Shown in pieces: positions 4,601 to 7,600 of a stretch of 64,000 nucleotides of DNA. Within the stretch, counting starts at the first letter, position 1. Each line of letters begins with the position of its first letter. Made by a program: the position numbers and the translations under genes. Origin of the DNA: Salvelinus alpinus (Eukaryota; Chordata; Actinopteri; Salmoniformes; Salmonidae); assembly GCF_045679555.1 (NCBI RefSeq), contig NC_092094.1, positions 30,354,052-30,418,051 of the forward strand. Direction: 5' to 3'. The notes beneath the pieces are model-generated. The model ran no database searches and was not told where the DNA came from. It saw only the letters and a program-made list of their open reading frames with translations.

Positions 4601-7600
4601 ATGTTACCCAGAAAATATTTTTTATGGTGATAAAAATGGCTGCTTTGGACTTTTAAATGTAGTCCTTGTGCATAGAGTTGTATGGTTTGTTTATCTTTGC
4701 AGTCAATGGTTTTTGTTTGGCATACTCTCTCTCTAGTTGAGGGCTCTGGGGGTGTTGCCCATGTGTTCCTATCAGATGGAGAGGATGTTCAACACCACAC
4801 GTATCCCTGGCATAGAGACAGGTGAGCACACTGCTGCCTTCTGGGGGCATAACACTATCAAACTATCACTGGGAGGTTGCATGAATCAATATGAACATGA
4901 GTTTGTGTCAGACACATCTTCTGACCATCTTAAACAAAAACTATCATTCAAGAGAAGTGTGCATTCCCCAACCCCTTATAATGTTCTATGTCCTCACCCC
5001 CTCTCCTACTCCTTGGTCCAGACTTTGTTCAGCACCTGAGTGACCGGAAGCACCTGGTGGTGTACCATAAGGGCCGCTTCTTTAAGGTGTGGCTGTACTA
5101 CGGGGGACGTCACTTATGGCCCTCTGAGCTGGAGACTCAGTTCCAGAGGATCCTCGACGACACCACGGAGCCACAGCCTGGGGAACTCAAACTGGCTGCC
5201 CTCACAGCCGGAAACAGGTATACACACATATAGGCACGAAAGCGCAACCTCCCCTCCTTCCTCACACACATCAGAAATAAAATGTCCACCTCTTATCCTC
5301 TCCCAGAGTTCCTTGGGCGAGGGCTCGTCTGAAGTACTTCAGCCAGGGTGTTAACAAAGCCTCTCTGGAGGCCATCGAGACGTCAGCCTTCTTCCTCACC
5401 CTTGATGATGAGGCGCACGGTTACGACCCTGACAAGCTGAGATCATTGGACCTGTACGCCAAGTCCCTTCTGCATGGGAAGTGTTATGACAGGTGAGACA
5501 ACTGGGAAGTGTTATGACAGGTGAGACAAACGGGATGTGTTATGACAGGTGAGACAAATGGGAAGTATTATGACAGGTGAGACAAACGGGAAGTGCTATG
5601 ACAGATGAGACAAATGGGAAGTTCTATGACAGGTGAGACGAACGGGAAGTGCTATGACAGGTGAGAGACAAACGGGAGTGCTATGACAGGTGAGACAAAC
5701 GGGAAGTGCTATGACAGATGAGACAAACGGGAAGTGTTATGACAGGTGAGACAAACGGAAAGTGCTATGACAGGTGAGACAAACGGGAAGTGTAATGACA
5801 AATGAGACAAACGGGAAGTGTTATGACAGGTGAGACAAATGGGAAGTATTATGACAGGTGAGACAAACGGGAAGTGCTATGACAGGTGAGACAAATGGGA
5901 AGTTCTATGACAGGTGAGATGAACGGGAAGTGCTATGACAGGTGAGATGAACGGGAAGTGCTATGACAGGTGAGACAAACGGGAGTGCTATGACAGGTGA
6001 GACAAACGGGAGTGCTATGACAGATGAGACAAACGGGAAGTGTTATGACAGGTGAGACAAACGGAAAGTGCTATGACAGGTGAGACAAACGGGAAGTGTA
6101 ATGACAAATGAGACAAACAGGAAGTGCTATGACAAGTGAGACAAACAGGAAAGGCTGTGACAGATGAATCAAACGGGAAGTGCTATGACAAGTGAGACAA
6201 ACGAGAAGTGCTATGACAGGTGAGACAAACGGGAAGTGTTATGACAGGTGAGACAAACGAGAAGTGCTATGACAGGTGAGACAAACGGGAAGTGTTATGA
6301 CAGGTGAGACAAACTGGAAGTTCTATGACAGGTGAGACGAACGGGAAGTGCTATGACAGGTGAGACAAACGAGAAGTGCTATGACAGGTGAGACAAACGA
6401 GAAGTGCTATGACAGGTGAGACAAACGGGAAGTGTTATGACAGGTGAGACAAACTGGAAGTTCTATGACAGGTGAGACGAACGGGAAGTGCTATGACAGG
6501 TGAGAGACAAACGGGAAGTGCTATGACAGGTGAGACAAACGGGAAGTGTTATGACAGGTGAGACGGGACAGAAAAGAAGGAAAGATGCGTTGTAAAGTAG
6601 GCCTATTTCAGTGAGGATAGTTTAACGCTATATTGCTTTTCTGTGCACTGCCTTTATGATGTGTGTTTCAGTGTTTAGCCTGATATGCCTTCTCTCTCTC
6701 TCAGGTGGTTTGACAAATCCTTCACCCTGATCGCTTATAAGAATGGTAAACTGGGGGTCAATGCAGAACACTCGTGGGCAGATGCTCCCATTGTAGGACA
6801 CATGTGGGAGGTAATGTTATTGATGGTCAGCCTCGTGGCAAAAAACAATTGGGGCCCCCCTATTTATGGCGAGGAGAAAAATTTGCAATTTATACCCATT
6901 TTCCATGTGGTGGAGAGACATTTCTGCAGTTTTAAAGCTAATTTCCCCAAATTCTACACATTTTGCCATGACTTATGTCATATTAATATGATATCTGAGT
7001 GAGAATGACTAACATAATCTATGTGGGCCTCCAGGAGGTCAGGGCCCCTGGGCACGTGCCCGGTCGGTATTCGGCCATGATTACTACAAGCTGGCTAAAC
7101 TACCAATCAAAAAATGTGCATGGCTGTGTCAACTAATTGCACCTGGTGTTTTCTACTATTCTTAATCTGAACAGTAAGTTGATACCCTGTCTGAGTTCCT
7201 TTTTTGGGGTCGGGGGCCCCCTTGCGACCGCTTATGTCTGGAGCCGGCCCTGTTGATGGTGGATTAATGATGTATTACAAACATGTTATTCTAAAACACA
7301 ATATATGACATGGTGTGATTCATTGGGAAGTGTGTTGTGTGAATCTAATGGTTGCTGTGCTGCTGTCTCTGTGTAGTACGTCCTAGCAACGGACTGCTTC
7401 CATCTGGGTTACACAGAGGAGGGGCACTGCAAAGGAGACATCAACAAGGGCCTGCCTCCCACCGCCAAACTACAATGGGACGTTCCATTGGAGGTATGGC
7501 TTCTAATGTGTTAGGGATCAAAAGTTGTAGCTTTAGTAAAGAGGAAAAGCTAGTTTAGTGTTGTGTTCAGTAGACCAGTCGGTAGTTTCTACGGGCTGTC

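Follow-up and report, generated by a model that had tools for sequence, protein, structure and literature searches.

The donor splice site of coding exon 10 in a Salvelinus alpinus cpt1 gene lies within a 28-bp minisatellite that begins in the exon and runs through most of the following intron, so that the same 9-nt donor is found at 31 positions, in near-identical local context, from 0 to 1065 nt past the true exon end. The window examined here is the whole 64,000-nt stretch of DNA that we analysed. We identify the array as a splice-donor minisatellite of an already known kind, and this is supported by the coding exon part of the unit, the authentic donor, the copy structure and the block duplications. 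On the basis of the sequence, we consider it probable that the first donor (donor 1) makes most of the mRNA, with nearby downstream copies (decoys) used in a minority of transcripts that would carry a nonsense message.

The cpt1 gene and the exon 10 boundary

The features of the gene and of the array are listed here with the basis for each in brackets; in the motifs, the slash marks the exon–intron junction.

1592..9539, + strand: cpt1 gene, 18 coding exons with a 771-aa open reading frame (hand-placed splice junctions, Pfam)
5307..5492, + strand: coding exon 10, 186 nt (gene model and carnitine acetyltransferase alignment)
5490..5498, + strand: authentic donor CAG/GTGAGA (weight matrix, U1-pairing energy)
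5493..6704, + strand: intron 10, 1212 nt (gene model)
5476..6564, + strand: 28-bp minisatellite, 38.9 copies (TRF, consensus GGGAAGTGCTATGACAGGTGAGACAAAC)
5521..6558, + strand: 32 downstream GT donors, given as the first intronic bases of the first and last (unit listing, scoring)
5605..6164, + strand: six units without the +1 G, all interior (unit listing)
5705..6118, + strand: 108-bp exact duplication in the array (copies at 5705 and 6011, lag 306)
6240..6505, + strand: 126-bp exact duplication in the array (copies at 6240 and 6380, lag 140)
6558..6704, + strand: last donor to acceptor, 147 nt (gene model)

The cpt1 reading frame starts with the ATG at 1611 within the first coding exon and is translated without a stop to 771 aa, with all 17 introns of the GT-AG type, and the protein matches the Pfam families Carn_acyltransf (1.7e-186) and CPT_N (1.6e-24). 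A pseudogene reading was dropped as the open reading frame is intact, and in terms of its closest paralogue we take this cpt1 to be nearer muscle CPT1B. Joining 5492/5493 to 6705 gives an uninterrupted CPT1 of the full 771 aa in which the exon 10/11 join encodes ..CYDRWFDKSF.., and because the RWFDK of this joined motif is aligned with the RWFDK of carnitine acetyltransferase, we regard 5492/5493 as the authentic exon end. The intron which follows is long for this gene (1212 nt, where the remaining 16 cpt1 introns have a median of 158 nt). Just downstream of cpt1 there is a transposon-looking stretch with similar inverted ends (10039–11635), which is presumably a Tc1-like element.

Anatomy of the 28-bp minisatellite

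TRF describes the array with a period of 28, 89% matches and a score of 1694, the highest of the 21 TRF rows in the window. The repeat unit joins the final 17 nt of exon 10, which are the exonic portion of unit 1, to the opening 11 nt of intron 10, and when the array is cut at the exon–intron junction it yields 39 units whose first intronic bases run from 5493 (unit 1) to 6558 (unit 39). GT is present in 33 of these, as CAG/GTGAGA in 31 and as CAA/GTGAGA in two, and is missing from the other six. The sequence CAGGTGAGA has 31 copies on the + strand of the 64-kb window, all of them within the array, and none on the - strand. The initial annotation had proposed that the exon 10 donor was multiplied about 39-fold by a 28-bp unit spanning the true exon end and its donor, with dozens of near-consensus 5' splice sites opening intron 10, and all of this agrees with the unit listing. 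It had also described variants lacking GT as trailing units, which is wrong: the six are interior (units 5, 9, 12, 20, 23 and 25, with first intronic bases at 5605, 5718, 5802, 6024, 6108 and 6164), and CAG/GTGAGA is retained in 13/13 of units 27–39.

The array contains 26 distinct unit strings, and 8 of the 38 further units have the 17-nt exon end in unchanged form. Mean pairwise divergence between units is 9.9%, and is distributed unevenly at 9.6% for rows 1–12, 13.1% for rows 13–25 and 6.3% for rows 26–38; the 126-bp and 108-bp exact duplications show that there has been block turnover in the array. A divergence of this order beside an intact open reading frame suggests that the array is unlikely to be of very recent origin and that the gene has survived it. 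A dispersed source was considered and dropped because, on both strands, the rest of the window lacks any 14-mer of the array; there is one 12-mer match, near 50250 on the - strand. Exact scans of viral contigs with 28-mers and of bacterial and archaeal contigs with 20-mers produced no matches, as expected for fish DNA.

The window includes other repeats. These are a perfect (TG)52.5 microsatellite (15167–15271) which is likely to be polymorphic, an identical 40-bp tandem array present at 20518–20557 and at 40061–40100, some 19.5 kb apart, which perhaps represents two copies of one mobile element, and a region of dense 27-, 54-, 81- and 18-bp tandem repeats (35105–36094) that is perhaps coding and perhaps part of a retroelement.

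Donor strength, coding outcome and donor choice

When scored with a weight matrix and by pairing to the U1 5' end, the authentic exon 10 donor ranks third of the 17 cpt1 donors by score and is tied first by U1-pairing energy. Equally strong interior sites number one in the 4401 nt of the other 16 introns versus 30 in intron 10 beyond its own donor. The 32 downstream donors comprise 30 copies of CAG/GTGAGA and the two of CAA/GTGAGA (6136 and 6192), and in silico use of each of the 32 places a TGA directly past the junction, as had been anticipated in the initial annotation, and gives a protein of 449 aa versus 771 aa. The further expectation of that annotation, that the added length would always be a multiple of 28, holds up to unit 7 and fails from unit 8 (197 nt), because some of the steps between units are of 27, 29 or 30 nt; the last unit adds 1065 nt. 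Retention of intron 10 in silico would likewise give 449 aa, and skipping of exon 10 would stay in frame with 709 aa.

With donor 1 the exon measures 186 nt and the intron 1212 nt; with the last donor the exon grows to 1251 nt and the intron shrinks to 147 nt, which is an ordinary size for cpt1. The array would make a good natural test of exon versus intron definition among equal donors. The units also carry AG/GT, the sequence whose tandem duplication underlies one route of intron gain, in which a new intron arises between duplicated proto-splice sites. A CAG/GTGAGA sequence can serve both as an exon end and as a donor. The cpt1 gene model requires no unit acceptor. Pyrimidines make up 25–40% of the 20 nt upstream of the AG in 38/38 downstream units, compared with 80% at the true acceptor, which makes it unlikely that a unit acts as an acceptor, and on these grounds recursive or stepwise removal with units as zero-length exons was set aside. 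Folding of 201 nt (5460–5660) gave a z of +1.16, with 176 of 200 shuffles folding at least as well, and RNA structure was dropped as an explanation as this single stretch is no more structured than its shuffles.

We suggest that slippage or unequal exchange expanded the array and that it has been carried largely passively. Many units could be bound by U1, with the spliceosome probably committing mostly to donor 1 because exon 10 would be defined by its own acceptor, which lies 186 nt upstream, and the exons made with most decoys would be several hundred to 1251 nt long. Intron and array would then be removed together, and the minority of transcripts spliced at near decoys (units 2–4) would meet the TGA immediately and be cleared by nonsense-mediated decay. 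It should be noted that the ordinary 147-nt intron left by the last decoy, versus 1212 nt for donor 1, is evidence against this explanation. Two further lines would by analogy also favour the decoys, as passages of PMC6002489 describe the intron-proximal of two comparable donors as favoured, for a reason not known, and passages of PMC5585400 describe suppression of the intron-distal donor in DOK7 and in many human genes when SRSF1 is bound upstream of the competing sites. Each unit brings along a copy of the exon context, exact in eight cases, and hence sequence close to the donor would hardly single out donor 1.

These points bear on a serious rival reading, which we consider less likely from the sequence, in which a substantial part of the U1, and of the splicing, goes to decoys and a longer array gives more nonsense message and less CPT1. 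The initial annotation had proposed that array length could tune cpt1 output in this way and that the length would differ between individuals. Thirty decoys are the authentic 9-mer, among the strongest of the cpt1 donors, and should be accessible given the lack of excess predicted structure at 5460–5660, and all 32 alternative donors truncate the protein at residue 449. The 28-nt period is shorter than the 35-nt U1 footprint (23 nt upstream plus 12 nt downstream) cited in PMC6002489, so that binding of U1 to unit 2 may get in the way of its binding to donor 1, but the same source holds that a spacing of 33 nt still lets U1 occupy both donors, and exclusion at 28 nt would be an extrapolation. 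Precedent is divided, with a human minisatellite described by title as having several donors (Turri et al. 1995) and the length of an intronic TERT repeat reported in part of PMC11830802 to alter splicing and nonsense-mediated decay via G-quadruplexes, against amphioxus arrays which passages of PMC3087553 and PMC3902484 suggest are spliced regularly. The intact open reading frame next to a diverged array also argues against a heavy loss to decoys, and array length beyond a few units would be irrelevant if only near units were used. As any downstream use is nonsense, the array ties minisatellite length, if length matters, to gene output, but we think it unlikely that the number of units sets the share of cpt1 transcripts lost to nonsense splicing and in this way lets inherited differences in minisatellite length alter fatty-acid oxidation.

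The donors might also have been retained because multiple bound U1 aids the transcript, with no splicing choice involved; suppression of premature polyadenylation would be one such benefit. The full donor is kept in 31/39 units, and 8 of the 9 invariant unit columns fall within the 10-column stretch from -6 to +4 of the junction (5487–5496), a clustering with permutation p of 0.0024 (0.0021 within base class) for a window length picked post hoc and columns treated as independent. The two Gs at -1 and +1 are essential for U1 pairing, yet they are the most variable positions in this stretch (non-consensus in 4 and 6 of the 38 rows, respectively), and intron 10 is just 1.2 kb long, and we regard this role as very unlikely. 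Nor do we claim selection for decoys from the clustering, given the post hoc window, the assumed independence of columns and the variation of these key Gs. Selection against decoys is likewise not claimed: non-consensus counts for the ten G columns in 38 rows are 6 at +1 and -10, 4 at -1, -16 and -17, 2 at -15, 1 at -12 and +5, and 0 at +3 and -5, so that losses of the junction Gs are high in the range of G columns and not beyond it. That the assembler lengthened or scrambled a short repeat is very improbable; an amphioxus array of a similar kind was aberrantly assembled in a genome draft (in passages of PMC3087553) and the copy number assembled here could be off, but the 26 distinct unit strings, the ordered arrangement of the block duplications and the small size of the array (only ~1.1 kb) speak against such an origin.

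Comparison with known systems

Among the matches listed from the open-licence literature, no title or start of an abstract referred to a cpt1 donor array. The human minisatellite of Turri and colleagues is reportedly that of IFI6 (6-16), an interferon-induced gene, where a 12-nt donor-like repeat is said to start near the end of exon 2. Two of its downstream units are reportedly used as donors, which would fit the near-decoy use we propose for cpt1. Extra IFI6 units would stay in frame because of this unit length of 12 nt, whereas the 28-nt cpt1 unit leads to an immediate stop; unlike in-frame donor repeats, any use of a downstream donor in cpt1 is nonsense. By its title, Turri et al. 1995 (cited in PMC2915984 and PMC3618361) concerns a human minisatellite that provides multiple splice donor sites, and to this extent it resembles the cpt1 array in having units with donor sequences (33/39 in cpt1).

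A neighbouring case from fish is provided by Sparus aurata, in which intron 1 of MSTN-2 and the GH introns contain repeats with allelic length variation (passages of PMC3045353), and here too repeats are found at the 5' end of an intron. The MSTN-2 repeat has one or two copies of ~150 bp, and whether a donor lies within the unit is not stated in these passages. The TERT repeat VNTR6-1 has a 38-bp intronic unit which acts through G-quadruplexes, and in the parts of PMC11830802 describing it, this minisatellite of similar copy number to the cpt1 array is proposed to be a splicing switch with nonsense-mediated decay. Human internal tandem repeats at exon–intron boundaries, in genes in segmental duplications and averaging ~4 units of 30 bp (passages of PMC2812944), are like the cpt1 array as minisatellites which affect gene structure at such a boundary; however, they are discussed there as making new introns, whereas cpt1 keeps its original intron.

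The amphioxus 'mirage' minisatellites of Adh3, the globins BflGb6 and BflGb9, TnC and PGBD5 are described in passages of PMC3087553 and PMC3902484 as repeats across exon–intron boundaries (on the donor side in BflGb9) with many copies of splice signals and unstable lengths. The cpt1 array is mirage-like in that its tandem unit covers a real exon–intron boundary (17 nt of exon and 11 nt of intron), in that splice signals are copied in the units (33/39 with GT and 31 with the full 9-mer), and in its concerted turnover, seen in the 126-bp and 108-bp exact duplications and the uneven divergence. Mirage units of 10–72 bp are given for Adh3 in these sources, and the 39 copies of 28 bp in the fish cpt1 gene compare with 3 or 6 copies of 150–160 bp in amphioxus BflGb6.
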